Shown: one piece after another, positions 16,568 to 33,474 of the stretch
How positions within the stretch are numbered: position 1 is the first letter of the stretch
Layout: every line of letters starts with the position of its first letter
Assembly: GCF_014863585.1 (NCBI RefSeq)
Contig: NZ_CP062253.1
Coordinates: 4,304,501-4,368,500 of the forward strand
DNA: 64,000 bases
DNA from: Pseudomonas gozinkensis
GTDB taxonomy: Bacteria > Pseudomonadota > Gammaproteobacteria > Pseudomonadales > Pseudomonadaceae
Direction: 5' to 3'
Notes under the pieces: generated by a model
Seen by the model: only the letters and a program-made list of their open reading frames with translations
Databases searched by the model: none
What the model was told of the DNA's origin: nothing
Program-made: the position numbers and the translations under genes

Positions 16568-17671
16568 TCAATTTTGCTGATTCACCCGCTCACGCAAGTA
16601 CTCGATAACGGCCTGCCGCTCCCCCGCAAACTCGATCCGACCGCCCTTCTTCTCGCGCTGAAACACATACATTGGGTCGTAATATTCGCGCAGCAAACCC
16701 TCGATCCACGGGCGGTGCAAGTCTACCGCCCCGCTGCGGCCCTGTTCCGCCAGCGCCTCTTCCATCAACACTCGCATCCGTCGATGCCGCTCGCCCCCCA
16801 GCCGTTTGTGCACATTGTCGAGGCTATCCAGCAACCGCTCCGAAAACCGCCCGAAACCCTCGTCTCCATGCACAGACTGAAACTCGGCGGACAAATCCAC
16901 CACATAATCGCGCAGGATCCGCTCGACGCGCTGCTCGAAACGGTCCTCCAGCCAGACCATCGGGTATTGCTGCATGCCCTGATAGAGCGACAGCGGCAGC
17001 GCGCAGCTCCCCACCACCCGGCTCTCATCCTCCAGCACAAACTGATCGATGCCGGCGGCACGTTTTTTCAGGAAGTCGATGGCCAGCCGGTTCTCGAAAT
17101 CGATGTTCGACGGCTGACCGGAGGCGCGTTTGCCGAAACTCGAGCCTCGGTGATTGGCATGGCCTTCCAGGTCCACGCCGTTGCGCAGTTGCACCAGCAC
17201 TTCGGTCTTGCCGGTGCCGGTCATGCCGCCCAGCAACACGAAATCACAGTCGGCCTGGGTTGATTCAAGAGTGTCGATCAGAAAACCCCGCAGCGCCTTG
17301 TAGCCACCGCCGATACGCGGGTAGTCGATACCGGCCTCCGACTTCAGCCACTGCTGGACGATCTGCGAGCGCAGGCCGCCACGAAAGCAATACAGGTAAC
17401 CGTCCGGATGCACCCGGGCAAAGTCCGCCCAGGCCTGAAGCCGTTCGGCCTTCACCGCGCCGGACACCAATTGATGGCCCAGCTCGATGGCGGCCTGCTG
17501 CCCGTGATGCTTGTAGCAAGTGCCGATCCGCTGCCGCTCGATATCGTTCATCAACGGCAGATTGGCCGCACCGGGGAACGCGCCCTTGTGAAATTCGACC
17601 GGCGCACGAGCGTCCATCAGCGGCCGGTCGTTGAGGAAGATGTCGTGATAGTCGGTGAAGTCGGCGGCCAT
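16568..17671 (-). CDS. mnmH: tRNA 2-selenouridine synthase (MnmH/SelU/YbbB)
   Basis: A 367-residue enzyme that replaces sulfur of 2-thiouridine by selenium at the wobble base of some tRNAs, using selenophosphate. The N-terminal rhodanese domain has its catalytic cysteine at 95 ([12 protein letters not shown]). The P-loop domain has [10 protein letters not shown] near 148-157. Length and both motifs match E. coli YbbB. The ATG at 17671 overlaps the selD stop by one base, and GAGGTG in the end of selD serves as ribosome site. The open frame could start one codon earlier at a TTG, which I discount. Confidence 0.95.
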
Positions 17672-18705
17672 CAATTCACCTCGACGGCGGTGCTCTTTCG
17701 CTCCAGCAGTTCACCGATGGGTTCCAGTGTCAGACCCAGTTCGGCGGCGACGGCGAGGAATTCGGCATTGCCTTCGGGAGTAACGGCCACCAACAGACCG
17801 CCGCTGGTCTGCGGGTCGCACAGCACCCGTTTGTGCAATTCCTGGACCCGCCCGACGCGGCTTGAATAGCTGTCGAAATTGCGCAGGGTGCCGCCCGGCA
17901 CGCAGCCCTGTTCGAGGTAGTACTCGACGCTCGCCAGACGCGGCACCCGATCATAAAAAATGCGCGCCGTCAGGTGACTGCCGTCGGCCATTTCCACCAG
18001 ATGCCCGAGCAGCCCGAACCCGGTGACGTCGGTCATCGCGGTGACTCCGGCCAGTTTGCCGAAACGGCTGCCGGGCTTGTTCAGCGTACACATCCAGTCC
18101 CGGGCCACGCCGATGTCGTCGGGGCGCAGCTTGCCCTTCTTCTCGGCGGTGGTGAGGATGCCGATGCCCAACGGTTTGGTCAGGTACAGCAGGCAACCGG
18201 CGGTGGCGGTGTCGTTGCGTTTCATGAAGCGCTTTTCCACCAGTCCGGTGACGGCCAGACCGAAGATCGGCTCCGGCGCATCGATCGAATGCCCGCCGGC
18301 CAGCGGAATTCCCGCCGCATCGCACACCGCGCGCCCGCCGCGAATCACCTCTCGCGCCACTTCCGGCGCCAGCACGTTGACCGGCCAGCCGAGAATCGCA
18401 ATCGCCATCAACGGATCGCCGCCCATGGCGTAGATATCGCTGATGGCATTGGTGGCGGCGATCCGGCCGAAGTCGAATGGATCGTCGACGATCGGCATGA
18501 AGAAATCCGTGGTCGAGACCACCCCGCGCTCGGCATCGATTTCATACACCGCCGCATCATCGCGCGACGCATTGCCGACCCACAGTTTCGGATCAAGATT
18601 CTGCGCCCCGCTGCCGGCCAGAATCACCTCCAGCACCTTGGGCGAAATCTTGCAGCCACAACCGGCGCCGTGGCTGTATTGGGTCAGACGGATGGGCTCG
18701 GTCAT
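17671..18705 (-). CDS. selD: Selenide, water dikinase (selenophosphate synthetase)
   Basis: A 344-residue enzyme that makes selenophosphate from selenide and ATP. The active-site loop HGAGCGCK gives C16 and K19, the equivalents of E. coli C17 and K20, so this is the cysteine form. Downstream motifs include the ATP/Mg-binding [21 protein letters not shown] and [10 protein letters not shown]. It is the first gene of a two-gene operon with mnmH, so its product is probably used at least for tRNA selenouridine. No selA, selB or selC is in this window. Confidence 0.96.
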
Positions 18706-18798
18706 GGGGACAGTCTCCTGGCAGGGAATGACGCGAATACTAGCAGAGAGCCAAATGGGGCTGCCGTGTCAATCCTTCCTAAGATAACTGAAGGCATA

Positions 18799-18827
18799 TT
18801 GACATCACCTTTCAACAAGGGAGAATC
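18799..18827 (+). promoter_or_regulatory. Possible sigma-70 promoter of the three-gene membrane/HNH cassette
   Basis: TTGACA at 18799-18804 is a perfect -35. At 16-17 bases' spacing the best -10 is a weak GAGAAT/AGAATC. The putative start site would lie about 25 bases before the ATG at 18860. Confidence 0.4.
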
Positions 18828-18859
18828 CCCGCCATATCTGAAAAAGTCAGGGATTACTT

Positions 18860-19837
18860 ATGAAATTTCGCGCCTACTGCCCCACGGAAGAAACGATTAT
18901 CGATAGTTGGCTGCGCGAAACCGCTGCCCCTTGTGCCGCAAACTTTCGCTCGACTGACATTTTCTCTTCCATCACCAGCGCTGTAGGCCGGGCATTTGAC
19001 GCGACGCGCGAGACGGTGACAGAAGCTGCGGACATCGTCGGAGATAAAGTCGGCAATCTGTATGACGCCACTGTAGAAACGATTTCCGATGCTGCGGACG
19101 TTGTAACTGAAGTAGCCGAAAAGGTCGGTGACGCTGTATCCGATGCCTACAATTCCACCGTCGAAACCGCCTCCAGCGCTGCCGATGTTGTGGCTGACGC
19201 CTACACCTCGGCTGTCGAGTCCGTGGTAGACGCGGCAGACAAAGTGGGTGATGTGCTTGGTGATGCCTACGACTTCACACGTGAAACCATAGCCAGCGGT
19301 TACGACAGCTCTCGTGACTATGTGGCCGAATTCGGCACGTCAATGGCAACCTACTGGAATGCAAAAAAAGAGCTGGAAGAGCGTAAGGAAAAAAACGCGG
19401 AAGCTCGTGGTGAAATGCGCCAGAAAGCCAAGAGTGAAATTCGGGAAAAGCGCTTCACCGAGGCACTGGCAAAAGCCAAGGCCTGCATCGATAGCCACGA
19501 AGCCTACTTCAAGATGCTGATTGCCATGCAAGCTGTCGCCCAGGCAAGTGCTGCCTGCGCCGGGGTGGCCAGCAAAGAAGATAAACAGCAGATCGACGAG
19601 TTCCTGATGGGAATGGGCGGCGGATTCCTCCCAGCGACAGTACAAAGTGCAATAAACCTGCTGTCCCTCAACCCTCCCACGCTCAAAGAAGCTTTCGTTC
19701 GCGCACGAAAAGTCGGCCCCGAGGCGCAGCCATTATTTGAAGAGATCATTGATTTCGTCACGACACTGAATGGCGAAATGAACGTGCCGCAAAAGGCGTT
19801 TCGCTCGGGATGGGCACAGTTGTCTGCCGTTGCTTGA
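18860..19837 (+). CDS. Amphipathic-repeat (LEA/apolipoprotein-like) protein of unknown function
   Basis: A 325-residue protein with no recognised enzyme motif and no signal peptide. Residues ~40-170 are a run of Ala/Asp/Val-rich amphipathic helices with recurring ETVxxAADVVxDKVGDxY-like units, reminiscent of LEA proteins or apolipoproteins that lie on membranes. Residues ~175-215 are a highly charged coiled-coil candidate (KKELEERKEKNAEARGEMRQ). A helical C-terminal domain has cysteines in KACIDSHEAYF and ASAACAGVA. ATG 18860 follows AGGGATTACTT. It is first of three same-strand genes with lower GC than their surroundings. Function is unknown; surface association with membranes is inference. 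Confidence 0.8.
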   Translation: MKFRAYCPTEETIIDSWLRETAAPCAANFRSTDIFSSITSAVGRAFDATRETVTEAADIVGDKVGNLYDATVETISDAADVVTEVAEKVGDAVSDAYNSTVETASSAADVVADAYTSAVESVVDAADKVGDVLGDAYDFTRETIASGYDSSRDYVAEFGTSMATYWNAKKELEERKEKNAEARGEMRQKAKSEIREKRFTEALAKAKACIDSHEAYFKMLIAMQAVAQASAACAGVASKEDKQQIDEFLMGMGGGFLPATVQSAINLLSLNPPTLKEAFVRARKVGPEAQPLFEEIIDFVTTLNGEMNVPQKAFRSGWAQLSAVA

Positions 19838-19850
19838 AAGGAGAAACACC

Positions 19851-21506
19851 ATGACGGATCGAATTGAACGTTTCAAAGCCCGGCAACGTCAGCAAGCAGC
19901 CTTGAGTAACACCGCACGACTTGTCGAATTGCCCGAGTCCGATATCGCTCGACAATTGCTTGAAGAACCCTTGCTCCGTACGACGGAGGACGTGTTTATC
20001 AGCGCTGATTTTTCGGTGGACTTGCACGTTGCCGACGACGAAGCAGAGGCCATTCTCAAAGGGTATTCGCAAACCTTCAACCAGCAACGATTCGATCAGT
20101 TGATCGGAGACAGCAAACGCGAAGTCTTGCAGGCCATCGCGGTGCCTTTCGGTCTGGGCCGCGTGTTGGCGGTGTACGACAAAAAAGGTGGCAACGTCGA
20201 TACCATTAACAATGCGCGAAACAAGGTGTATGCGACCGATGCTGCAGCAGACAAATATGCAGATCTGCCCAAGTACGACTCGAACAAGTTCCATGGGGAC
20301 AAGGCTTACATCGCAAAAAACGCAAAAGACACTCTCGCTCAGAATTCAGGCGTGCTCAAGGACGCCTACACCAACGAAACCTTCAGTCAGAACAAAAACC
20401 ATGACCCGCGTAACCTTGATCACACCATTTCAGCCAATGTGATTCACAACGATGCAGGACGTGTACTGGCCGATGTGGATGGGCCGACGCTGGCCAATGC
20501 AGATTCGAATCTGAACCCGACCAAAAAAGCTTTGAACCAGTCAAAGGGCAAAAAAAACGCCACTCAATTCGTCGAGGAGCTGCAAAAGAACACCCAAAGC
20601 CGCCAGGAAGAAATGCAGCGTTTGTCCGACAAAGAAGAGCTGACGCCCAAAGACGAAAATCGTCTGCGATTACTCAAGCAACAAGAGGCCATCGCACAAA
20701 CCCCCGATTTGCTCCTGGCCAAGGACAAAGCAGCGCGCGAGGCGTATGAAAAGAAGCTCAGTGATGCCTATTACAAAAGCGAAAAATTCAAATCCGACCT
20801 CGCCAAAACCAGCCTGAAGGAAGGCGGCAAGATGGCCTTTCAGCAAGCCTTCGGCGTCATGCTCATCGAATTCTTCAGCGCGACCTTCGACGAAGTTACA
20901 GATCTGTACCGCAATGGCCGATCTCATGAGTCGTTGGTGCCTGAGTTGCGGACACGTCTGGAACGCATTGCGAAGCGAGTCGCAAATCAATGGCAAACAG
21001 CCTTGGCGGCAGGCGGTGGAGGCTTCGTGGCCGGCGTTCTGGCCAACCTGGTGACAACGCTGATCAACGTCTTCGTCACCACGGGCAAACGCGCGGTGCG
21101 CATGTTTCGTGAAGGATTCATGTCACTGCTCAAGGCACTCAAAACGCTGTTGCTGCCCCCGAAAGGGCTCACATTACGTGAGGCGGCACACGAGGCAATC
21201 AAAATCACCTGCGCCGGCGGAGTCATCATCGCTGGAGTCGCACTGGAAGAAATCATCGAAAAACAGATGCTCACGATTCCCGGTCTGGGTGCCTTGGGTG
21301 CGATCTTGTCAGCCGTAATCGTCGGTGCACTGACAGGCCTGGCCAGCACTTTTGTTGTTTATCTGGTGGACAAGCTGGATCTGCTGGGCGTGAACCGAGA
21401 CCGCGAGTTGATCGCGCTCAACGAACAGTCGGATCGAAACCTGCGGCAGGCGATGGCAGAAAACGACAGATTGCTTTTGGAGCTGGAAAGTAGCCTGGCT
21501 ACCTGA
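19851..21506 (+). CDS. Membrane protein with an HNH-nuclease-like block
   Basis: A 551-residue protein starting 13 bases after the previous gene, with GGAG eight bases before its ATG. Residues ~185-236 contain LDHTISANVIHNDAGR, then SNLNPTKKALNQSKGK: an Asp-His pair, a second His-Asn-Asp, and a late Asn-x-Ser-Lys, which is the layout of an HNH (His-Me finger) nuclease. Residues ~240-320 are charged coiled-coil (EELQKNTQSRQEEMQ). Hydrophobic segments at ~385-409, 452-468 and 477-505 should span the membrane, and the tail is again coiled-coil-like. Nuclease activity is an inference from the motif. Its place between an amphipathic protein and an OmpA-domain membrane protein is unusual and suggests a defence or toxin role, unproven. 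Confidence 0.75.
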   Translation: MTDRIERFKARQRQQAALSNTARLVELPESDIARQLLEEPLLRTTEDVFISADFSVDLHVADDEAEAILKGYSQTFNQQRFDQLIGDSKREVLQAIAVPFGLGRVLAVYDKKGGNVDTINNARNKVYATDAAADKYADLPKYDSNKFHGDKAYIAKNAKDTLAQNSGVLKDAYTNETFSQNKNHDPRNLDHTISANVIHNDAGRVLADVDGPTLANADSNLNPTKKALNQSKGKKNATQFVEELQKNTQSRQEEMQRLSDKEELTPKDENRLRLLKQQEAIAQTPDLLLAKDKAAREAYEKKLSDAYYKSEKFKSDLAKTSLKEGGKMAFQQAFGVMLIEFFSATFDEVTDLYRNGRSHESLVPELRTRLERIAKRVANQWQTALAAGGGGFVAGVLANLVTTLINVFVTTGKRAVRMFREGFMSLLKALKTLLLPPKGLTLREAAHEAIKITCAGGVIIAGVALEEIIEKQMLTIPGLGALGAILSAVIVGALTGLASTFVVYLVDKLDLLGVNRDRELIALNEQSDRNLRQAMAENDRLLLELESSLAT

Positions 21507-21629
21507 CCCCCCTCTCTGCCGAGCCAGTTTTAGCTGGCCATCGAACATGGCTCGTCGTTTCACTTGCTTGGTCAATCAAGAAAAACAAACCTGCATGCAT
21601 CGCGTGCAGGCTCTTCCTCAGGAAAACTC

Positions 21630-22868
21630 GTGTCTGAATTACTTGAAACCCTTCAAAAACTTTCCTCCTTTGCAGCCAAATCAACCATTGCACTTGGCAT
21701 TCTTATCACCTGGGGTTACTGCGCTTTCCTGATCAATTTCTTCCCGACCGGCCTCAACCTGGCAGATAGCCTGGTTTTTATTTTCATAGCACTAGGGTTT
21801 GGTTTTTTGTATTCGTACTGGTTGGGAAGCAGCTTTATAGCTTTTAACTTTGCTTTCGCTGCATTCAAAGATAAAAACCTCATCGACAAAGTATTCTCCA
21901 TTTTATTCAGCTTCTTTTTCTTCAGCGCGCTTGCCCTGGTTGCTTACTTCATGCAGGACTGGGCTGCTTTCTTTGCGCCCATCGCCAGCGGATTCATCTT
22001 GTACATTGCAGTAAACCACTGGAAATCCGACCTGTCCGATACAGCTGAAAAACAAAAGCGAACACTGCAACGAATCGTTTTGCTGGTGATTGCCATCATT
22101 ATCCCGGCAGCCATGGTGCCACCGGTTTTCGGCAAGTTCATTGACGGGACCTTTGGCTTTATTGGAGTCCAGCAAAAAGACGTTTCACTGGTGTTAAGCG
22201 AAGAAAATCAAAGAATCATCAGCGACACTGCAAAAGAACTGAACCTCTCGATTTATGGCTGTACGAAGGAGGGAAACCAAACCAATATTGCTCATCACTT
22301 CAATGTCCTCTGGCACGGATTGGGCGAACGCAGTCTTGTACAACTGCTCGCCTACGATACTGAAAGCAAGAAATGGAACAAAAAAATCGCAAAAATCGAA
22401 CTGGATCGCAGCGGCGTTAAAGTCCTGACTCCGGAGAACAAGCGAAATAGTTTCAAGACCTGCTTAACCGTGAACACCGACACGCTTTTCGATATTTACG
22501 ACGACAAAATCAGCGCTAACGGGAAGAAGCAACTCGCTCAATTTACTCAGGAAACCGAACTAAGGCTGGCAGCCGATCATCTGAAGATACTTTCCGCCAA
22601 CATCATCGGCCACACCGACAGAATCCCCGTGCTCAAGCCGGGAGACTCCAATGCGGCCCTGTCCATGCGGCGCGCCGACAGCGTGTATGCAGAGATCAAA
22701 GAACTGTTTTCCGACCTGCCTGAGGCACAAGTAAAACGACTCGGACAAGGCTCGCTGGAACCCAAGTCGACATGCACCAGAGACCTGCCACTCCCTGAAC
22801 AAAAGGAATGCCTGGCGGTAGACCGACGCGTTGAGATCGAACTGAAAGTACAACTAAAAGAGCAATGA
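21630..22868 (+). CDS. Polytopic membrane protein with C-terminal OmpA-like peptidoglycan-binding domain
   Basis: A 412-residue protein starting at GTG 21630, preceded by CAGGAAAACTC; a TTG at 21564 in the same frame is less likely. About six hydrophobic segments fill residues 15-165, followed by a soluble linker and an OmpA_C domain (~280-408). Its conserved residues are visible: NIIGHTDR with Asp330, SMRRADSVYAEI with Arg348, and DRRVEIEL with Arg400, which in OmpA proteins bind diaminopimelate in peptidoglycan. The domain should lie in the periplasm. Zorya ZorB and MotB also join a membrane segment to an OmpA domain, but those have a single helix. It ends the cassette. Confidence 0.8.
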   Translation: MSELLETLQKLSSFAAKSTIALGILITWGYCAFLINFFPTGLNLADSLVFIFIALGFGFLYSYWLGSSFIAFNFAFAAFKDKNLIDKVFSILFSFFFFSALALVAYFMQDWAAFFAPIASGFILYIAVNHWKSDLSDTAEKQKRTLQRIVLLVIAIIIPAAMVPPVFGKFIDGTFGFIGVQQKDVSLVLSEENQRIISDTAKELNLSIYGCTKEGNQTNIAHHFNVLWHGLGERSLVQLLAYDTESKKWNKKIAKIELDRSGVKVLTPENKRNSFKTCLTVNTDTLFDIYDDKISANGKKQLAQFTQETELRLAADHLKILSANIIGHTDRIPVLKPGDSNAALSMRRADSVYAEIKELFSDLPEAQVKRLGQGSLEPKSTCTRDLPLPEQKECLAVDRRVEIELKVQLKEQ

Positions 22869-22907
22869 TCATTCCTTCATACGGATAGCAAACGAAAAGC
22901 AACGATC

Positions 22908-22953: not shown

Positions 22954-25900
22954 TCAGAACCCGAGGCTGAAGCTGATGGTCATCGCATGGTCGTTGCTCT
23001 CGTTCGACAGCTGCCCTGAATAGCCGATGCCGAGTTTGCCGGTCGGGCTGATCTGGAAGTCCACGCCTGCTTCGACCACCGCGCTGTCCTTGGCAATCGG
23101 CACGCCCTGGGTGTTGAACGAGGCGCCGCCGTCGATGAAGGTCAGGTCGGCGTCGGGTTTGGTGTCGCCGAAGGCATGCCGCCAGCCGAGCGCCGCACGC
23201 GGGGTGAATTGCCCGCCGTTGGCCAGGGTGATGACCTTGCCGGCGCGCACGCCCAGGGTCGAGAAGGTGATGTCCTGATCGGCCTCGGCGCGCAGGCGGC
23301 CCACCCCGCCTTTTTCCTTGGCCTTGTCACTGTCGTAGTTGACGTATGCCAGGCCGGCGAACGGTTCCAGGGCAATCCCGGCCGCTTCGATGGCGTAGCC
23401 GACTTCACCGAACACCTGAGCGCTGCGCGCGTCGTAGTTGGCCTTCAAGCGGTCGTTGTAGGCGCCGACGCTGACGTCGCGCTTGGTCTCGATGTCGTGC
23501 CAGCTGTACGCCGCGCCGAGGCGCACTGCCAGAGCATCGAATTGCGAGTTGAGGTACGCCGCCAGGTGGTAGCTCTCGACCGTGGCATCCGAGCGACGAT
23601 CATGGGCATCCAGATCGCTGCGGGTGTAGCCGGCGGCCATGCCGACGCGCCATTGGTCATCGATCTGCTTGTCGGTGCCGAGCATGAAGCCGCTCAGGTT
23701 GCGATCCAGTTTCGCGCTGTTGCTGTCGCCGTCCGACTCGCCCCAGGCGCCGAGTGCACGGGCCCAGCCGACCATTTCGCCGTGGCAGCCGTTGCTGCTC
23801 AGCTGATTTTCGCTCGGAGCCAGGGCGCGGCGTGGATCGTCCGGAGCACTGCACGACGGCTGGCGCATACGGTCGTTGACCGCGTCCCGCACGTAGCGCG
23901 AATCCTCAAGGATTGCGCTGGCGGTGCTGGCATGGATTTCACCCGACAGACTGTCGAAGGCGTTACGAGCGCCGGCCACACTGAGGTTGACGAGTTCGTT
24001 CTGCAACGCTGCGCCCGCTGCTCCGTTGCGCATCAACGCCGAGGCAGTGTTGCGCTGGTTGCGGGTGGCCGCGACGTCGACGAACGAGTTGCCGTTGCGG
24101 CTGACTACCAGATTCACCGCGTTAGCGTCATACACCAGCGCCGAGTCAAGGAACGCATACTGCGGCAGATCGGCGGCGCTGAACGTGCCGATCACCCCGC
24201 CTCCGGCGGTGATCAGTGAGTACACGGTATTGCCGGTGAACGGTGCCAGGCTGTTGACCTGCAGACCGCCGCCCAAGGTGGCAGTACCACCGACTGCCAG
24301 TGGTGTGGCGGTCGGCGAGCTGACAGTCAGGGCCAACACACCGTCGGCGGCGTTGGTCAGGTTGCCGGCGACACTCAAGGTGCCAGCCTCGGCACCGGAC
24401 TGCACCACACCATGGTTGACCAACGAACCGACGCTGCCGTTACCGCTCAACCCGGCGCCGTTGGCCACGGTGACCCGCCCGCCGAGCGAAGCCCGGGCCG
24501 AGCGGCTGCCGACCTGCAGCACGCCCTGATCGACCGCAACGGTGCCGCTGAACGGCTGATTGCCGGTCAACAACAGGGTTGCGTCACCCCGCTTGGCCAA
24601 CGCGCCGGTACCACTGAGTACCCCGTTGAACTGACCATTGGCGTTCTGCTGGAACACCAGCGATGCTTTGTTGAGGATGTTGCCCTGCAGGCTGGTGGTG
24701 TTACCGATCAGCGTACCGCCGCTGACCGTGGTCCCGCCGCTGTAGGTGTTGGCGCCGCTGAGGATCAGGGTGCCGGAATCCAGCTTCTCGATGCCGCCAC
24801 TGCCCACCAGCGGTACGGAGATTTCCGCGCTGCCACCGGCATTCACCCGCACGGGTGCGAGACTGCCGTCCGCGCCGTTGACCGGTGTCAACGTACCGCC
24901 GGCGCCCGGAACCAGGCTGTAACCGTTGGTGAGGAACTGCAACCCGGTGAAGTTCTGATTGCCTTGCACGGTGACCGTGCCGCTCTGTCCGCCGAACACC
25001 GCGAACTGACCGCTCGACGCCTGCGCCTGAGTACCGGTCGGATCGGTCCAGTTGGTACCCGGGCCCCACACGCCGCTGCCGCCGCCGATGCTGCCGTCCG
25101 GGTTGGTGGTGCCGCCGTTCCAGAACTGCACCTCACCCGGCGTGTTCTGCACCAGCAGGTTGACCTGATTGGCCAACGCGGTTTGCAGAGTCAGGTTGGC
25201 CGCCGACACTGGCAGGCTGCCGTACACCAGACCGTTGTTGGTCAGGCTGCCGCCGTAGCTGAACAGTTGGTAGACCCCGGTGCCGAAGCCGCCGGCGTTG
25301 CTGATGTTCAGCGTACCGTCGAGGGTCAGGTTGCCGGCGACGTTGACCACGGTTGTGGAGCTGGCGGCCGAGCCGAGCGTGAAGTCCAGGTTGGTGCCGG
25401 AAGACAGTGCCAGCGAACCGACCGACAACGCGGTCGAGTGCCCGCCGCCGAGCAGTGTTGCCCCGTTGGCCAGTTGCACGGCGCCGCCGAGTTGACCACC
25501 GCCACCGAGCTTCGCACCACTGGCAACGTTGACGTTGGCACTGTTGAGCACACCGCTGACGTTCAGCGAACCGGCCTGCACCGCGGTGTTGCCGGTGAAG
25601 GTGTTGTTGCCGGTCAGCAGCAAGGCGCCAGTGCCGGTTTTGTTGAGGGTGCCGGCGCCCGTCAGGTTGCCGGTGTAGCTGCCGTCGCTGTTCTGCTCGA
25701 AGGTCAGCGCCGCGTTATTGACGATGGCGCCTTGCAGGCTGCTGGTGTCGCCACGGGTGCTGCCGCCGTTGAGCGTCGTACCGCCGCTGTAGGTGTTGGC
25801 GCCGCTGAGGACGAGGTCGCCGTTGCCGTTTTTCACCAGACTGCCGCTGCCGGTGATCGCCCCGATCAGGGTGGTGTTCTGGTTGCCGGCCAGGGTCAGT

Positions 25901-28900
25901 TGCGCACCCAGGTTGATGGCGTTGGCCAGTTGCAGCGCAGAGGTGCTGTCGAGGGTACCGTTGCCGAGCACGCTGAGGGCGCCGCTGCTGATCGCGCTGT
26001 TGTTGCCCAGGATCAGCGAGCCGCCGGACAGTTGAGTGCCGCCGCTGTAAGTGTTGCTGCCGTTAAGGGTCAGGCTCGATGCGCCGGTCTTGATCAGACT
26101 GCCGCTGCCACTGACCACACCGCCAAGGGTCAGCGCGTTGGAACCGGTGACGGTGAGTCCGCCATTGAGCACCACATCGTTGGCCAGACTGGCCGCCGTG
26201 TTGCTGTCCAGCGCCGTGCCATTGGCGGCGGTCAACACGCCAGTGCCGAGGGCGGCGTTGTTGCCAACCACGATCTTGCCGCCATTGAGCGCGGTGCCGC
26301 CGGTGTAGCCGTTGGCCGCATTGAGCACCAGGGTGCCAGTGTCGTATTTGCCCAGCGTACCGGCACCGTTGAGCGCGACGCCCACGGTGGCGGTGACATT
26401 CGGATCGACCCTTACGGTCGCATTGCCCAGCGAACCGTCGACCAGATTCAGCGAACCGGCCGTGCCGTTCTGCAGGCTGTAGCCATCGGTGACGAACTGC
26501 ATGCCGGTGATGGTTTGCGCGCCGTTGACCGTGACCGTGCCCGCGGTGCCCTGGAACACTGCGAAGTTGTTGGTCCAGGCCTGATTGGTGGTGCCGTTGA
26601 CGTCGGTCCAGTTGGTGGTGCCAGTGCCCCACGTGCCGCTGCCGCCATCCACCGAACCGTTGGCGACGAGTTGGTTGCCGTCCCAGAACTGCACGGTGAC
26701 GCCCGGTGCGGTGACCAGCAGGTTGATCTGGTTGGCCAGCGCGGTTTGCAGGGTCAGGTCACCCGGGGTGACGCTGCCCGGCACGGTGCCGATCAGCATG
26801 CCGTTGTCGGTCAGGCCGCCGGTGTAGTTGATCAACCGGTACACACCGCTGCCGAAACCGCCGATGTCGCTGACGTTGAGGGTGCCGTCGAGGGTCAGGT
26901 TGCCACCGACGTTGACCAGCGCGTTGCCGCCACCGGACACCGGCGCGCCGAGGCCGACATCGAAGTTGGAGTTGGCGTTGAACACCAGCGAATTCACCGA
27001 CAGGGTGCTGCCGGTAGCGCCGGCCAGATGACCGCCATCCGCCACGGTCACGGTCCCGCCGAGCGAACCGCCGCCGGTCAGGGTGCCGCCGCTGTTGACC
27101 AGCACACTGGCGCTGTCCAGCGAACCGCTGACGTTCAAGGTGCCGGCGTTGACCGTGGTGTTGCCGGTCAGGCTGTTGAGGCCGGTCAGGGTCAGCGTAC
27201 CGGTGCCGAGTTTGCTCAGTTCGCCCGTGCCCGTGAGCACACCGTCAAAAATACCGCTGGCGTTGTTGCCGCCGATGCTCAGCGTGTTGCCGCCGCCGAT
27301 CAGTGCGGTCCCGCTGCCGGTCAGGCTGGCGAGGCTGCCCGAGCCGCCTAGGTTGAGAGTCGCCGCAGCGCCGAGATTGACCCCGGCGTTGCTGCCCAGT
27401 GCCGAGTTGCCCAGGGTGGTCAGGCTGCCGGACTGCACATCGAAGGTGCCGCTGAAGGTGTTGTTGCCGGTCAGCGTCAGGTCGGCCAGACCGTTCTTGG
27501 TCAGGGTGCCGGCCCCGGCGATCACGCCACCGAGGGTCAGGTTGTTGTTGCCCGCCACGCTGAGGTTGGCATTGACGTTTAGGTTGTTGGCCAGTACCAG
27601 CGGCGCCGTGGTGTCGAGGGTCGACGCGCCCGCCACGGTCACCGCGCCGGAGCCCAGGCCTGACGAGGTGCCGAGGGTCACGGTGCCGGCGTTCAGCGTA
27701 GTGCCGCCGCTGTAGGTGTTGATGCCGTTGAGGGTCAGGTTGGAGGCGCCATTTTTGATCAGTCCACCGGTACCGCTGACCACGCCGCTGAGGGCCACGT
27801 CGCTGTTGCCGGTGTTGGTCAGGTTGGCGTTGAGTACCACGTTGTTGCCCAGCGACACCGAGGTGTTGCTGTCCAGCGCCGAGGCACCGGCCACGGTCAG
27901 GTTGCCCAGACCAAGGGCGCCGTTGCTGCCGGCGGTCAGGGTGCCGGCGTTGAGGGTGACGCCACCGAGGAAGTTGTTGGCCCCGCTCAGGATCAGGTTG
28001 GCCGCACCGTTCTTGGTCAGGCTGCCGGCGCCGTTGATCGCGCCTGACAACGTCAGGTTGTTGCTGCCGACGATAGCGAGGTTGCCCGCCAGGTTGATCG
28101 CATTGCCCGCACTGAAGGCGCCACTGGCATCGAGTGTGGTGCCGTTCGCCGCGTTCAGGGTGGCTGAACCCAGCGCGCTGTTCGACGCCAGAACCAGACC
28201 GCCCGCGTTCAGTGCCACCGGCCCGAGGAAGGCGTTGTTGCCGCCGAGGGTCAGGCTGGCCGAGCCGTTCTTGATCAAGCCGCCGGTGCCGGAAATGACA
28301 CCGTTGAGGGTCAGCGCATTGCTGCCGAGCACGGTCAGGTTGCCATTCAGCGTGGCAGCGTTGGCCAGGGTCGCAGCGGTGTTGCTGTCGAGTTGCGTGC
28401 CGGCATTGGCGATCAGCGCGCCAGTGCCCAGTGCGGTGTTGCTGCCGACCACCAGGGTGCCGCCGTCCAGTTGCGTGCCGCCGGTGTAGCTGTTGGCGCC
28501 GTTGAGTACCAGGGTGCCCGCGTCGAGTTTGTTGAGGATGCCGCTGCCGTCGATGTTCACACCGACCGTGGCGGTCACGCCCGGATCGACCCGCATCGCC
28601 GTGGTGCCGCCGGAGCCGTTGACGGCGGTCAGCAGCCCCGATGTGCCGTTGACCACGTTGTAGCCATCGGTGAGGAACTGCATCCCGGTGAACAGTTGCG
28701 TGCCGTTGACCGACACCGTGCCGGCCGTGCCCTGGAACACCGCGAAGTCGCCGGCCCAGGTCTGGTTCACCGTGCCGCTGGAATTGGTCCAGTTGGTGCC
28801 GCCGGCAGTCCATGTGCCGGTGCCGCCATCCACGGTGCCGTTGGCGATCGTCTGGCTGCCGTCCCAGAAACGCAGGTTGGTGTTCGGCGCCGACACGATC

Positions 28901-31900
28901 AGGTTGACCTGGTTACCCAGGGTCTGCACAAGAATGTCGCCGAGGCCGTATCCCACCGGTACACCGGCCACGGTCAAACCGTTGTCGGTCAGCGCGCCGA
29001 TGTAGTTGAACAAGCGATAGACACCGACGCCGAAACCGCCGGCATCGGTGACGTTGAGGTTGCCGTCGAGGGTCAGGTTGCCGCCGATGTTCATCAGCGA
29101 GCTGGTCGATGGCGTGGCGAGGCTTGCGTCAACATTGCTGTTGGCCGTGAGGATCAGTGACGAGGTAGACAGGGTATTGCCCGAGGACAACGCCAGATGA
29201 CCACCGCTGTTGATGGTGATGAAACCAAGCGCCGATCCGGTGCCCGTGAGGGTCGCACCGTTGTTGACGTTGAGCTGGTTGCTGGCCAGCGAACCGGTAA
29301 GGTTCAGCGTACCGCCATTGACGTTGGTGTTGCCGGTGATGCCGTTGGTGCCAGTGAGGTTCAGCGTCCCGGTGCCGACTTTGGTCAGCGCACCGCTGCC
29401 ACCGAGGTCGCCGTCGAAGGTGCTGGTGCTGTTCACGCCGCCCACGGTCAGGGTGTTGCCGCCGGCGATCTGCACACTGCCGCTGCCGCTCAAGCCGTTG
29501 AGGCTGGCGCTGCTGTTGAGATAGAGATTGGCACCGGCGCTGATGTTGGCGCCGGAGGTGTTGCCCAGCGCCCCGCTGCTCACGGTGGTGACGCTGCCGG
29601 AGGCGATGTTCAGCGCGCCGGTGAAGGTGTTGTTGCCGCTGAGCGTCAGGTCGCCGAAGCCGTCCTTGGTCAGGCTGCCGGCGCCATCGATCACGCCGCT
29701 GAGGTTCAGGGTGTTGCTGCCGGCCAGGGTCAGGCCGGCGTTGAGAGTGATGTTGTTGCCGACGCTCATGCCGGTGCTGGTATCCAGCGTCGATGCACCG
29801 CCGACCGTCAAGCCGCCACTGCCCAACGCAGCGGCCGAACCCAGTGTCAGCGTACCCGCGTTGAGCGTGCTGCCACCGCTGAAGGTGTTGGTGCCATTGA
29901 CCGTCAGGTTGGCCGCGCCATTCTTGATCAACTGGCCGGCGCCACTGATCACGCCGCCGAGGGTCAGGTCCTGGGTGCCGCCGACGCTCAGCGCTGCATT
30001 GAGCACGACCGCGTTGGCCAGGCTGACCAGCGGCGAACTGCTATCGAGGGTTGCTGCGCCACCGACGGTCAAGGCGCCGGTGCCGAGGGCCGAGCTGTTG
30101 CCGGCGGTCACTGTACCGGCGTTCAGCGTGGTGCCGCCGGCGTAGGTGTTGGTGCCATTGAGATTCAGATTGGCTGCGCCGTTTTTCACCAGGCTGCCGG
30201 CGCCGGCGACGGTTCCGGTGAGGCTCAGATCGGCGCTGCCGCCGATGTTCATCGCACCGGCCAGGTTGACCTGGTTGCCCAGAGTGACGGCCGTGTTGGT
30301 ATCCAGCGTGGTGCCGGCCGCTGCGTTCAATGCGCCGCTGCCGATCGCGGTATTGCTGCCGACAATCAGCTTGCCCACGTTCAGCGCGGTGTTGCCGAAG
30401 TAGGTGTTGGCGCCGTTGAGAATCAGGTCGGCCGGGCCGCTTTTGGTCAGGCCACCGACCCCGGAGACCACGCCCGCGAGGGTCAGCGCGTTGCTGCCGC
30501 CGATGGTCACGTTGCCGCCGAGGTTGACGTTGTTGGCCAGACTGGTCGCGGTACTGGCGTCCAGCGTGGTGTTGTTGCCGGCATTGAGGATGCCGGTGCC
30601 GAGGGCGGTATTGGAGCCGACGACCAGTGTCCCGGCGTTCAGCGACGTAGAGCCGGTGTAGGTGTTGTTGCCGGTCAGGGTCAGGGTCGAGGAGCCAGTC
30701 TTGATCAGGTTGCTGCCACCACTGATCACGCCGCCGAGGGTCAGTGGGTTGGCGCCGCCGGCGGTGAGGTTGGAGTTGAGGGCAATCGCGTTGTTCAGCG
30801 TCACGTTGGCGCTGCTGTTGAGCGTCGCACCCGCCCCGCCCACCGTCAGCGTGCCGGTGCCGAGTGCCGCGCCGTTGCCGACGGTCAGGCTGCCGGCGTT
30901 GAGCGCGGTGCCGCCGGTGAAGGTGTTGGCGCCGTTGAGGGTCAGGTTGGCGGTGCCGTTCTTGATCAACTGACTGGCGCCGCTGAGCACGCCGCCCAGG
31001 ATCATGCCGTTGCTGCCGCCGATGGCCAGGTTGCCGTTGAGGGCGACGTTGTTGTTCAGGATGACCGAGGTATTGCTGTCGAGGGTCGCGGCGCTGGCGA
31101 CAGTCAGGGCGCCGCTGCCCAGCGCGGCGGCGTTGCCGACGGTCAGGGTGCCGGCGTTCAGCGTGGTGCCGCCGCTGAAGGTGTTGGCACCGTTGAGAAT
31201 CAGGTTGGCCGCGCCGTTCTTGGTCAGCCCGCCGCTGCCGCTGACGACACCACCGAGGGTCAGGTTGGCGTTGCCGGCGATGTTCAGGTTGCCGCCCAGA
31301 GCAACGGCGTTGCCCAGCGCCACGGTGGTGCTGGCGTCGAGAGTGGTGCCCGCCGCCGTGGTCAGTGCGCCGGTACCGAGCGCGGTGTTGGAGCCGACGA
31401 TCAACGTTCCGTTGTTCAGCGCCGTGCCACCGGAGAAGGTGTTGTTGCCGCTGAGGGTCAGGTTCGCTGTGCCACCCTTGATCAGGTTGCCGGCACCGCT
31501 GATAACACCGCTCAGGCCCAGCGCCTGTGTGCCGCCAATGGTCAGCCCGCCGGCCAGCGCGACGGCGTTGGCCAAGGTCACGGCGGTGGTCGCATCCAGC
31601 GTGGTGCCGGCCGCTGCGTTCAAGGCGCCCGTGCCGAGCGCGGTGTTGCTGCCGACGAGCAAGCTGCCGCCGTTGAGCGCGGTGGTGCCGCTGTTGGTGT
31701 TGTTGCCGGTCAGGGTCAGGCTGGCGCTGCCGCTTTTGGTGATCGCGCCGGTGCCGGACACGATGCCGGCCAGGGTCAGGGCATTGCTGCCGAGCACGTT
31801 CAGCGCACCGGTGATGCCGACGTTGTTGGCCAGGGTCACGTTGCCAGTGCTGTCGAGACTGGTGCCGTTGCTGGTGTTGAGCACGCCAGTGCCCAACGCG

Positions 31901-33474
31901 TTGTTGTTGCCGACGCGCAAGGTCCCGGCGCTGAGGCTGGTGATCCCGGTGTAGGTGTTGATGCCGTTGAGGGTCAGGCTGCCGCTGCCGGTTTTGGTCA
32001 GGTTGGCGGCGCCGCTGATCACCCCGCCCAGAGTCAGCGCACCGGTGCCGGTCGCGGTCAGGGTGCTGTTGAGCGTGATCGCGTTAGCCAGCGAAATCGG
32101 CGTCGTCGCCGAAATGCTCGACGAGCCGCCAACGGTGATGCCGCCGGTGCTGAACGCCTGATTGTTGCCCACCAGCACCACACCGCCGTTGAGCACGGTG
32201 TTACCGGAGTAGGTGTTGATGCCGTTGAGATTGATCTGGCCGCTGCCGATCTTGGTCAGGCCGCCCGTGCCGGAAATCACCCCGTTCAGGGTCATGCCGT
32301 TGATGCCCTGCAGGGTCAGGCCAGTCCCGCCCAGGTTGATCTGGTTGGCCAGCGTCAAACCGGCATTGCTGGCCTGGAGGATCCCGCCGTTGGACGTCAG
32401 CACACCGCTGCCGAACGCCGCGTTGTCGTTGAACTGCGCGACACCGCCATTGAGGGTGGTCGCACCGCTGACCAATGGCCCCTGCAAGGTCCAGGTGCCG
32501 CTGTTGAGGGTCAGATTGTTGAAGTTGACGTAGGTCGCGCTGGACGCTGTACCGGTCCCGGTGGTGCCGCCGCCGAGGCCGATCGGGTTTTGCAGGATCA
32601 GCGTGTTGGTACCGGCCGCACCGCCATCGATCGTCCCGGTGGGTGCGAAGGTCAGGTTGACGCCGATCAGGCCACCGAGACCAACGGACACTTGCACACC
32701 GTCGCCGACGTTAACGCTGGAACCTGTGATCGCGTAGAAGGTGTTGGTGCTGCCCGCCCCCATCGACACGCCGCCCGTGATGTTACCGGCGTTGGTGAAG
32801 GTGTTGCCCGCCACCGACGTCTCGAACGCAACCCGGCCGTTGATCGTACCGCTGGCACTGTTAGTCATGTTGACTTGCGAGCCGCCATACACCCCGACCA
32901 CTGGGGTATCGGCCAGGGTGATGCCGCCGACCGACAGCCCGGTCGAAGTAATCGTGCCGTCGTTGGTGATGGTCGTGGTGCCCGACACCGAGTTGTTCAC
33001 CGCAATCCCCAGACCGTCGATGCTGGTCAGGTTGAGGCCGAGCAACATGCCGGTGCCGCGAATGAGCCCGGTGGTGTTGTTGGCGATGCTCACGGTGCTG
33101 GTTGCGCCGGTGCCGATGAAAGCGCCGCCACTGAGGATCGACACCAGGCCCAGCAACGCTGGGTCGATGGTCCCGGAGTTGTTCAGGTTGATGTTGGCCC
33201 CGGTCAGGTTGATGACCTTGCCGCCCAGCGTCGAGTTCATCTGCGCGCCGTTGGTGACGTTGACCGTCAGGCCGCTGGTGGCACTGCTGTAGTCATTGAG
33301 AAACAGCGGCAGGGTCGGGACACCCGAGCAGGTAATCGTGGAGCCCGCCGCCGAGCAGGTGGCGAACGCCTGCTCGCTGACACCGCCGAACAGCAGTCCG
33401 GCGACGCTCAGGTGCACAGCAAGGGACAGTGGGGAAAAACGCGAAACGAGGGCGACACCAAACCTTGCTTCCAC
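22954..33474 (-). CDS. Giant autotransporter with autotransporter-associated beta-strand repeats
   Basis: A 3506-residue type Va secreted surface protein. The start is GTG at 33474 with AGGAG seven bases upstream. A signal peptide ends near EQAFA-TCSAAG. The passenger (to about residue 3125) is a long beta-helix made of PATR units (NGANTFSGGTTLNAGTLTVG and variants), several dozen in number. It is interrupted by three related cassettes beginning FWDGxQ/FWNGG near residues 1535, 2260 and 2785. The C-terminal ~280 residues form the translocator barrel (GYTRSDLDAHDRRSDATVESYH ... SFSLGF), ending in the required aromatic Phe. Probable roles are adhesion or biofilm formation. It has its own terminator at 22908-22934. 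Confidence 0.93.
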   Translation of the reverse strand: MEARFGVALVSRFSPLSLAVHLSVAGLLFGGVSEQAFATCSAAGSTITCSGVPTLPLFLNDYSSATSGLTVNVTNGAQMNSTLGGKVINLTGANINLNNSGTIDPALLGLVSILSGGAFIGTGATSTVSIANNTTGLIRGTGMLLGLNLTSIDGLGIAVNNSVSGTTTITNDGTITSTGLSVGGITLADTPVVGVYGGSQVNMTNSASGTINGRVAFETSVAGNTFTNAGNITGGVSMGAGSTNTFYAITGSSVNVGDGVQVSVGLGGLIGVNLTFAPTGTIDGGAAGTNTLILQNPIGLGGGTTGTGTASSATYVNFNNLTLNSGTWTLQGPLVSGATTLNGGVAQFNDNAAFGSGVLTSNGGILQASNAGLTLANQINLGGTGLTLQGINGMTLNGVISGTGGLTKIGSGQINLNGINTYSGNTVLNGGVVLVGNNQAFSTGGITVGGSSSISATTPISLANAITLNSTLTATGTGALTLGGVISGAANLTKTGSGSLTLNGINTYTGITSLSAGTLRVGNNNALGTGVLNTSNGTSLDSTGNVTLANNVGITGALNVLGSNALTLAGIVSGTGAITKSGSASLTLTGNNTNSGTTALNGGSLLVGSNTALGTGALNAAAGTTLDATTAVTLANAVALAGGLTIGGTQALGLSGVISGAGNLIKGGTANLTLSGNNTFSGGTALNNGTLIVGSNTALGTGALTTAAGTTLDASTTVALGNAVALGGNLNIAGNANLTLGGVVSGSGGLTKNGAANLILNGANTFSGGTTLNAGTLTVGNAAALGSGALTVASAATLDSNTSVILNNNVALNGNLAIGGSNGMILGGVLSGASQLIKNGTANLTLNGANTFTGGTALNAGSLTVGNGAALGTGTLTVGGAGATLNSSANVTLNNAIALNSNLTAGGANPLTLGGVISGGSNLIKTGSSTLTLTGNNTYTGSTSLNAGTLVVGSNTALGTGILNAGNNTTLDASTATSLANNVNLGGNVTIGGSNALTLAGVVSGVGGLTKSGPADLILNGANTYFGNTALNVGKLIVGSNTAIGSGALNAAAGTTLDTNTAVTLGNQVNLAGAMNIGGSADLSLTGTVAGAGSLVKNGAANLNLNGTNTYAGGTTLNAGTVTAGNSSALGTGALTVGGAATLDSSSPLVSLANAVVLNAALSVGGTQDLTLGGVISGAGQLIKNGAANLTVNGTNTFSGGSTLNAGTLTLGSAAALGSGGLTVGGASTLDTSTGMSVGNNITLNAGLTLAGSNTLNLSGVIDGAGSLTKDGFGDLTLSGNNTFTGALNIASGSVTTVSSGALGNTSGANISAGANLYLNSSASLNGLSGSGSVQIAGGNTLTVGGVNSTSTFDGDLGGSGALTKVGTGTLNLTGTNGITGNTNVNGGTLNLTGSLASNQLNVNNGATLTGTGSALGFITINSGGHLALSSGNTLSTSSLILTANSNVDASLATPSTSSLMNIGGNLTLDGNLNVTDAGGFGVGVYRLFNYIGALTDNGLTVAGVPVGYGLGDILVQTLGNQVNLIVSAPNTNLRFWDGSQTIANGTVDGGTGTWTAGGTNWTNSSGTVNQTWAGDFAVFQGTAGTVSVNGTQLFTGMQFLTDGYNVVNGTSGLLTAVNGSGGTTAMRVDPGVTATVGVNIDGSGILNKLDAGTLVLNGANSYTGGTQLDGGTLVVGSNTALGTGALIANAGTQLDSNTAATLANAATLNGNLTVLGSNALTLNGVISGTGGLIKNGSASLTLGGNNAFLGPVALNAGGLVLASNSALGSATLNAANGTTLDASGAFSAGNAINLAGNLAIVGSNNLTLSGAINGAGSLTKNGAANLILSGANNFLGGVTLNAGTLTAGSNGALGLGNLTVAGASALDSNTSVSLGNNVVLNANLTNTGNSDVALSGVVSGTGGLIKNGASNLTLNGINTYSGGTTLNAGTVTLGTSSGLGSGAVTVAGASTLDTTAPLVLANNLNVNANLSVAGNNNLTLGGVIAGAGTLTKNGLADLTLTGNNTFSGTFDVQSGSLTTLGNSALGSNAGVNLGAAATLNLGGSGSLASLTGSGTALIGGGNTLSIGGNNASGIFDGVLTGTGELSKLGTGTLTLTGLNSLTGNTTVNAGTLNVSGSLDSASVLVNSGGTLTGGGSLGGTVTVADGGHLAGATGSTLSVNSLVFNANSNFDVGLGAPVSGGGNALVNVGGNLTLDGTLNVSDIGGFGSGVYRLINYTGGLTDNGMLIGTVPGSVTPGDLTLQTALANQINLLVTAPGVTVQFWDGNQLVANGSVDGGSGTWGTGTTNWTDVNGTTNQAWTNNFAVFQGTAGTVTVNGAQTITGMQFVTDGYSLQNGTAGSLNLVDGSLGNATVRVDPNVTATVGVALNGAGTLGKYDTGTLVLNAANGYTGGTALNGGKIVVGNNAALGTGVLTAANGTALDSNTAASLANDVVLNGGLTVTGSNALTLGGVVSGSGSLIKTGASSLTLNGSNTYSGGTQLSGGSLILGNNSAISSGALSVLGNGTLDSTSALQLANAINLGAQLTLAGNQNTTLIGAITGSGSLVKNGNGDLVLSGANTYSGGTTLNGGSTRGDTSSLQGAIVNNAALTFEQNSDGSYTGNLTGAGTLNKTGTGALLLTGNNTFTGNTAVQAGSLNVSGVLNSANVNVASGAKLGGGGQLGGAVQLANGATLLGGGHSTALSVGSLALSSGTNLDFTLGSAASSTTVVNVAGNLTLDGTLNISNAGGFGTGVYQLFSYGGSLTNNGLVYGSLPVSAANLTLQTALANQVNLLVQNTPGEVQFWNGGTTNPDGSIGGGSGVWGPGTNWTDPTGTQAQASSGQFAVFGGQSGTVTVQGNQNFTGLQFLTNGYSLVPGAGGTLTPVNGADGSLAPVRVNAGGSAEISVPLVGSGGIEKLDSGTLILSGANTYSGGTTVSGGTLIGNTTSLQGNILNKASLVFQQNANGQFNGVLSGTGALAKRGDATLLLTGNQPFSGTVAVDQGVLQVGSRSARASLGGRVTVANGAGLSGNGSVGSLVNHGVVQSGAEAGTLSVAGNLTNAADGVLALTVSSPTATPLAVGGTATLGGGLQVNSLAPFTGNTVYSLITAGGGVIGTFSAADLPQYAFLDSALVYDANAVNLVVSRNGNSFVDVAATRNQRNTASALMRNGAAGAALQNELVNLSVAGARNAFDSLSGEIHASTASAILEDSRYVRDAVNDRMRQPSCSAPDDPRRALAPSENQLSSNGCHGEMVGWARALGAWGESDGDSNSAKLDRNLSGFMLGTDKQIDDQWRVGMAAGYTRSDLDAHDRRSDATVESYHLAAYLNSQFDALAVRLGAAYSWHDIETKRDVSVGAYNDRLKANYDARSAQVFGEVGYAIEAAGIALEPFAGLAYVNYDSDKAKEKGGVGRLRAEADQDITFSTLGVRAGKVITLANGGQFTPRAALGWRHAFGDTKPDADLTFIDGGASFNTQGVPIAKDSAVVEAGVDFQISPTGKLGIGYSGQLSNESNDHAMTISFSLGF

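Follow-up and report, generated by a model that had tools for sequence, protein, structure and literature searches.

What does a small set of AT-rich genes for membrane-associated proteins do in the chromosome of Pseudomonas gozinkensis, and do all of its members belong to one system? The genes, here called g1, g2 and g3, lie on one strand within a stretch of 64,000 nucleotides (the window; contig NZ_CP062253.1, positions 4,304,501 to 4,368,500) of a host genome that forms one contig of 6.56 Mb. We hold it likely that the g1-g2 pair has an immune role; the more specific reading that we favour, at a probability of roughly 55%, is that g1 and g2 constitute a two-component membrane-associated antiphage system acting by the mechanism proposed below. 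The original prediction, made from the letters of this DNA, was of an envelope-sensing nuclease system, possibly for defence, that comprised all three genes; its HNH nuclease with a membrane region, its LEA-like protein as the likely sensor and its defensive role as a likely one were retained, but g3 was not retained as a core gene. The pair is composed of the following parts.

18860..19837, + strand: g1 (325 amino acids), LEA-like repeats (residues ~33-160) and a TerB-like domain (184-325); proposed sensor/adaptor.
19409..19834, + strand: C-terminal domain of g1, residues 184-325, common to 18 partner genes.
19851..21506, + strand: g2, predicted HNH nuclease with a C-terminal membrane region; proposed effector, matching PDC-M40B (E 3.7e-60).
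20178..20213, + strand: GGN..T..N motif of g2, residues 110-121; G113, G114, T118 and N121 kept in 109/109 proteins.
20343..20570, + strand: HNH/GmrSD_C-like core of g2, residues 165-240, with D190, H191, N220 and N229.
20934..21377, + strand: helical hydrophobic membrane region of g2, residues 362-509, from hydropathy and the structural model.

Nuclease family, hydrophobic region, adjacency of the pair, module swap and mobility were all read from sequence. g2 starts at the ATG at 19851, 13 bases past the g1 stop, and encodes 551 amino acids, of which residues 75-510 matched PDC-M40B, a protein of the putative phage-defence candidate PDC-M40 in PADLOC; the g2-type gene of another locus, L092, scored 864 bits against the same model. 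Pfam gave g2 no better match than E 0.14, and none to any HNH model at E up to 1. Among g2 and 108 homologues, H191, N220 and N229 were kept in all 109 proteins, D190 in 106 and H199 in 99; in a set of 43 loci, which counts the window and near-copies, the first three were again invariant (43/43) and H199 was kept in 30. His199, which had been singled out for mutation together with His191, was rejected as a catalytic residue because it is not invariant, unlike H191, N220 and N229, whereas His191 stood. The GGN..T..N motif aligned in 41 of the 43 loci and was missing in L101 and L102. The divergent g2-type protein of L102 (1161-2933) opens, by eye, with LEA-like repeats, and may be a sensor and effector fused.

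A profile of the g2 family recovered full-length relatives as well as proteins that matched only positions ~161-275. All four of the short relatives that were scanned, aligned to the HNH positions of g2, exceeded the Pfam cut-off for GmrSD_C (PF07510), in agreement with the HNH-like block first seen in the sequence, and D-H, N and N stood in register with g2 in three printed alignments of short relatives. The AlphaFold2 model of g2 had a mean predicted local distance difference test score (pLDDT) of 80.9 and a predicted template modelling score of 0.56, with block means of 91-97 across residues 131-310. Its strand at 187-191, strand at 221-225 and helix at 226-232 follow, in the model, the order of a His-Me finger, the fold anticipated for residues 185-236. 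Foldseek with the whole chain returned 0/45 matches at E up to 0.001, the first being a JetABC chain at E 0.26, so that no superposition backs the His-Me finger, although the HNH part alone was not searched. The HNH/His-Me group was thus recognised by its residues (D-H, N and N/H) and by their strand-strand-helix setting, and neither by a direct Pfam match nor by a superposition. By its relatives, g2 is predicted to be an HNH nuclease related to GmrSD_C.

Hydropathy identified three hydrophobic stretches in g2 (about 383-412, 447-470 and 472-509), the approximate number of membrane segments expected at the outset, and the C-terminal part was helical in the model, with residues 388-417 at low confidence. 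Nothing relevant among PDB sequences matched g2 or the profiles A2 and A3, and a PHROGs search with g2 gave no match at E up to 0.01. Several relatives bear product names that look like misannotations ('ATP--cob(I)alamin adenosyltransferase', 'lactate permease', 'chemotaxis protein').

A partner gene adjoined the g2-type gene in 41 of the 43 loci. The upstream partner was tied to g1 by BLAST in 18 loci and was of another type in 14, with 3/3 scanned proteins of this second type matching PADLOC PDC-M09A. Nine further loci had a SUKH-type gene upstream (4, one of which was checked by Pfam), a long coiled-coil-like gene downstream (7, by eye) or both (2), and two loci had neither partner kind. 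The part common to the 18 g1-linked partners was their C-terminal 125-142 residues. Comparisons of this domain by hhalign across five subgroups gave probabilities of 93.6-99.4 (ten comparisons, 1-5 sequences each), and twelve controls were all below 1; the clostridial L040 reached 82 and 61 against the two repeat types and 5-12 against the other three. Scores for TerB (PF05099, cut-off 24.4 bits) were 20.4 bits in L082, 15.0 in L005 and 12.2 in L083. In the model of g1, the domain was all-helical at low confidence, with block means of ~60-83 from residue 191.

The N-terminal part of the partner differed among loci. It consisted of amphipathic repeats in the window (L001), L003-L006, L079, L082 and L083, of one hydrophobic helix in six loci (by eye), and of other short hydrophobic starts in L039, L040 and L076. 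The repeats of g1 were recognised by eye and through Pfam matches below threshold, which in g1 and its relatives were to apolipoprotein, phasin and perilipin models. In L037, JukA matched residues 10-238 (E 2.4e-58) of a partner that ends in the g1-type C-terminal domain. The accession of this protein was found again in an Enterobacter plasmid, a Raoultella plasmid carries a gene with the same product name and length, and the operon DNA of L037 had no match in E. coli genomes. On a tree of g2, partner type required 6 changes, where shuffling gave a mean of 24.9, a contrast inflated by near-copies. By these comparisons, the N-terminal module of the partner is swapped among relatives. A gene for a small cysteine-cluster protein of the YkgJ family lay directly 3' of the class B pair in L038, L042, L043 and L044 (7.5-7.9 kb).

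Relatives of g2 were patchily distributed. Matches occurred in 23 of 398 genus-sample genomes, 13 of 369 in the class sample and 15 of 398 in the phylum sample, most of those in the latter two being HNH-only matches. Plasmids with g2 relatives numbered 69 records, and phages 7 records of four Aeromonas jumbo phages (~260 kb), of which the two that were read both had a partner of the second type. In these two, LAh10 and D3 (L041 4970-7566; L077 4009-6620), the g2-type gene and the PDC-M09A-type partner form a phage-borne defence-type module. IMG/VR contained one locus, L109, in which genes for a major head protein and a DUF1799 tail protein are followed by a repeat-type g1 and the start of g2, inside which the contig ends; the pair on this phage contig (4321-6417) looks like a moron, directly behind the tail gene, and has the same promoter-like element as the window (see below). 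A tblastn search of phage records with LEA-type g1 gave no match.

In E. coli, 379 of 5426 genomes had a match to a class B locus taken from a Klebsiella plasmid, and in 368 the match covered at least 80% of that locus. Type I restriction genes lay within ~10 kb of the class B relative in 3/3 E. coli loci read, two of which represent the same island; these relatives (L144 10001-12919; L145; L146) are annotated 'ATP--cob(I)alamin adenosyltransferase' or 'hypothetical'. The repeat-type pair of L005, whose g2 is 60% identical, is located after tRNA-Pro and genes that we take to be pheT, ihfA and merR, as named by reading of the sequence. According to PMC10250203, core defence hotspot 1 (cDHS1) of P. 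aeruginosa is bordered on its left by this set of genes. L005 thus lies at the left flank of cDHS1, a placement that covers the left side only. The flank genes of L005 had no match in any other locus examined. WYL-type regulators were upstream in 8/43 loci, some flanks being short.

The surroundings of the pair in the window are as follows.

17671..18705, - strand: left flank, presumed selD, named by reading of the sequence.
18749..22906, no strand assigned: inserted segment, absent in G011 and G002, where selD adjoins the autotransporter-like open reading frame (ORF).
18793..18826, + strand: promoter-like element GGCATATTGACATC-N14-GAGAAT (TTGACA-N16-GAGAAT), preceding g1.
21630..22868, + strand: g3, polytopic protein with an OmpA domain; companion at the selD site, not core.
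22954..33474, - strand: right flank, 3506-amino-acid autotransporter-like ORF, named by reading of the sequence.

The ORF list bore out three same-strand genes between selD and the autotransporter-like ORF. The names selD, mnmH and autotransporter are our assumptions from the sequence. Housekeeping genes had been predicted on both sides, which failed on the right, where the neighbour is the autotransporter-like ORF, on the opposite strand and with many similar repeats. The AT-richness of the cassette was confirmed: the 60 bases from 22201 include 23 G+C, and the G+C fractions of g1 (0.546), g2 (0.533) and g3 (0.476) all lie below that of the window (0.622). When the selD regions of eight relatives (L133-L140) were compared with the window, a cassette-free junction of selD and the autotransporter-like ORF was seen in two. 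Homology to G011 ended at 18748 and restarted at 22907, and homology to G002 ended at 18709 and restarted at 22954; in the remaining six, the autotransporter match was not found within the stretch compared, which was short in L133. By the empty site and these boundaries, the three genes are one inserted segment of ~4.2 kb. The same three genes occupy the same selD site in L003, L004 and L079, of which L004 and L079 are near-copies, with g1 and g2 showing equal identities to the window genes. In G016 (L133 1-3712), other ORFs lie upstream of selD, one of which was scanned and had no Pfam match, so that the selD site may be variable.

Besides the window, the loci with the promoter-like element ahead of a repeat-type g1 were L003, L004 (with its near-copy L079), L005, L082 and L109; with up to one mismatch allowed, it was not found in L006 or L083. 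Its 14-mer had 1 match in the window against 0.02 expected, and the element occurs once in its own genome (spacers of 13-17 bases searched); with a spacer of 15-20 bases, a range that excludes the window's own 14, there were 0 matches in 109 genus genomes.

The third gene has its longest ORF at 21564-22868; the start used was the GTG at 21630 (412 amino acids). The claim of an OmpA domain behind several membrane helices was upheld by PF00691 (E 3.9e-6, residues 298-382) and by several hydrophobic stretches before it, and the peptidoglycan-binding Asp and Arg were seen by eye only (HTDR from residue 328, MRRA further on). Matches to g3 were found in 5/398 genus genomes, of which three lack g2, and g3 was present in only 2 of the 23 genomes with g2 (the two samples of 398 appear to be the same set). 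The survey of co-occurrence that had been called for therefore supported the pair and not the trio: g3 was rejected as a core gene and is probably a passenger or companion at this site, although the presence of the trio in all four selD-site loci weighs against dismissing it. Close to a relative of g3 (G369; L142 7552-11400) are a transposase-like ORF and a gene for an ATPase matching AAA_15/AAA_21, and g3 may move on its own. OmpA-HNH links exist elsewhere, as in L167 from another genome (1420-3225, - strand; 601 amino acids) a MotB/OmpA-like part (286-454, ZorB-like by eye, with 8vvi_A as best match at E 9.3e-13) is joined with an HNH part of GmrSD_C-like type (487-570), a possible envelope-linked nuclease fusion.

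Our favoured reading places immunity at the membrane because the predicted nuclease is anchored, the partner module is swapped and in one case is the Juk sensor, the distribution is mobile, and relatives lie in a defence hotspot and in phages. The PDC-M40B match, the invariant H191, N220 and N229, the type I restriction genes near E. coli relatives, the WYL-type regulators, the empty site and the precedent of SNIPE also speak for it. We infer the g1-g2 contact, the membrane orientation, the trigger, the DNA target and the antiphage activity. g2 would be held in the membrane by its C-terminal helices, carrying its GmrSD_C-like HNH nuclease, and g1 would lie on the membrane through its amphipathic repeats, using its TerB-like C-terminal domain to dock on g2. 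Upon injection of phage DNA, or once a phage builds a membrane compartment, g1 would recognise that surface and bring or switch on g2, which would cut DNA there; retention of the nuclease at the membrane would spare the chromosome. More tentatively, such pairs may form a modular class in which one TerB-like dock, conserved throughout, brings an HNH nuclease anchored in the membrane to the target of an interchangeable N-terminal module: JukA to the infection vesicle, LEA-like repeats to altered lipid surfaces and the single helix to the inner membrane. The class would be a DNA-cutting counterpart of Juk that could reach genomes in phage compartments, and phages would carry such systems against rivals.

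If true, an orphan defence candidate would be tied by domain fusion to a known anti-jumbo-phage sensor, and the service of one effector to several sensors would be explained. HNH-based cutting of phage DNA at the membrane would be predicted beside that of SNIPE, and amphipathic repeats of the LEA-like kind, which are commonly taken for stress proteins, could be immune sensors. H191, N220, N229 and domain swaps would be the testable points.

Several observations weigh against a membrane-associated antiphage pair. To our knowledge, there has been no phage test of g1-g2. HNH proteins of the GmrSD_C-like family include general secreted nucleases, and several short relatives appear to be of that kind; the membrane region of g2 had no significant Foldseek match. 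Pfam did not detect TerB in g1, P0109, P0110, L006, L078 or L080, and TerB stayed below the cut-off even in matching relatives. The AlphaFold2 model of g1 was poor (mean pLDDT 51.4, residues 1-166 below 50). The promoter-like element and WYL links are confined to a minority of loci, and no recognised defence gene was identified beside the pair in the window.

Among other explanations, abortive infection fares best, and we judge it unlikely. Infection would free g2, and the nuclease would attack the chromosome or the helices depolarise the membrane, so that the cell dies or stops growing. The combination of an HNH nuclease with membrane helices would suit this, as would the upstream SUKH-family genes, members of a family known as toxin immunity proteins; these genes are confined to the divergent class C, however, and the membrane anchor fits spatial restriction. 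PMC13190303 reports that SNIPE was toxic without its anchor and that the anchored form was not.

We consider it improbable that g2 works as JukB is reported to, its membrane region opening or breaking the infection vesicle of the phage, with the HNH domain secondary. The JukA fusion in L037 and the helical membrane region in the model are compatible with this, but catalytic residues are the most conserved positions of g2, its model lacked a significant Foldseek match, and it had no PADLOC match to JukB at E up to 1, which led us to reject g2 as JukB, although no profile comparison of g2 with JukB was made. A slight chance, in our estimate, falls to an exclusion module against other mobile DNA (plasmids, rival phages) that is spread by plasmids and phages; the plasmid records, the Aeromonas jumbo phage records and L109 favour it, but many copies, that of the window included, are chromosomal, and this role is compatible with the antiphage pair that we prefer. 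A non-immune role, in which g1 and g2 are a LEA-like stress pair that protects membranes and g3 is an envelope protein, would accord with the apolipoprotein, phasin and perilipin matches, but we find it very improbable given the invariant nuclease site, the patchy distribution and the swapping of partner modules, JukA among them. Finally, a Zorya-like three-gene system with g3 as its envelope part can practically be dismissed, for despite co-insertion of the trio at one site, the fusion in L167 and weak matches of g3 to ZorB (E 4.6e-6) and of g1 to ZorA1/ZorA3 (E 1.1e-4), the former are confined to the OmpA part and the latter to the repeats and to profile positions beyond 259, the insertion holds no further gene, and g3 is missing from 21/23 g2 genomes.

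The comparison with Zorya drawn originally thus comes down to the likeness of an OmpA-domain protein next to an HNH protein, in a cassette with no MotA-like or helicase gene and a g3 that is not conserved with the pair. PDC-M40 is closer through its B protein; its models further comprise an A protein of 169 positions and a C protein of 344, whereas the window has a TerB-like partner instead. Neither g1 nor g3 matched PDC-M40A or C at E up to 1 in PADLOC (other neighbours were not scanned), and PDC-M40A was found in 0/8 records. PDC systems are described as putative and unvalidated in PMC10855318. The name 'PDC-M40' was not mentioned in the literature searched, and no description of the g1-g2 pair was recognised among the matches listed there, in titles and the beginnings of abstracts. 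With GmrSD, BrxU and SspE (DUF1524 nucleases), g2 shares the GmrSD_C-like HNH family, but it has a membrane region in place of DUF262, which Pfam did not find; several antiphage systems use DUF1524, according to PMC10952713. Shango and Bunzi have in common with g1 a TerB-like domain in a defence setting, and differ in a helicase or ATPase gene without counterpart in the cassette; Shango resides in cDHS1, as L005 appears to.

Juk, which recognises proteins of the phage at its infection vesicle (PMC13282480), shares the two-gene plan of a sensor and a membrane effector, and its JukA occurs fused to a g1-type C-terminal domain. It differs in that g1 had no match to JukA in PADLOC and g2 has a nuclease domain; JukA had 0 matches in the genome of the window, and no g2-type ORF was found in 30 JukA loci (L045-L074, ~1.5 kb flanks). 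SNIPE, a membrane-bound nuclease that acts on phage DNA at entry or injection (PMC13190303), would share with g1-g2 the logic of a membrane-bound nuclease directed against phage DNA at entry. It is one protein with DUF4041 and GIY-YIG, neither of which was in the Pfam result for g2, whereas g1-g2 combines an HNH nuclease with a separate partner. SNIPE is the nearest working model in print, and Juk the nearest system by domain.

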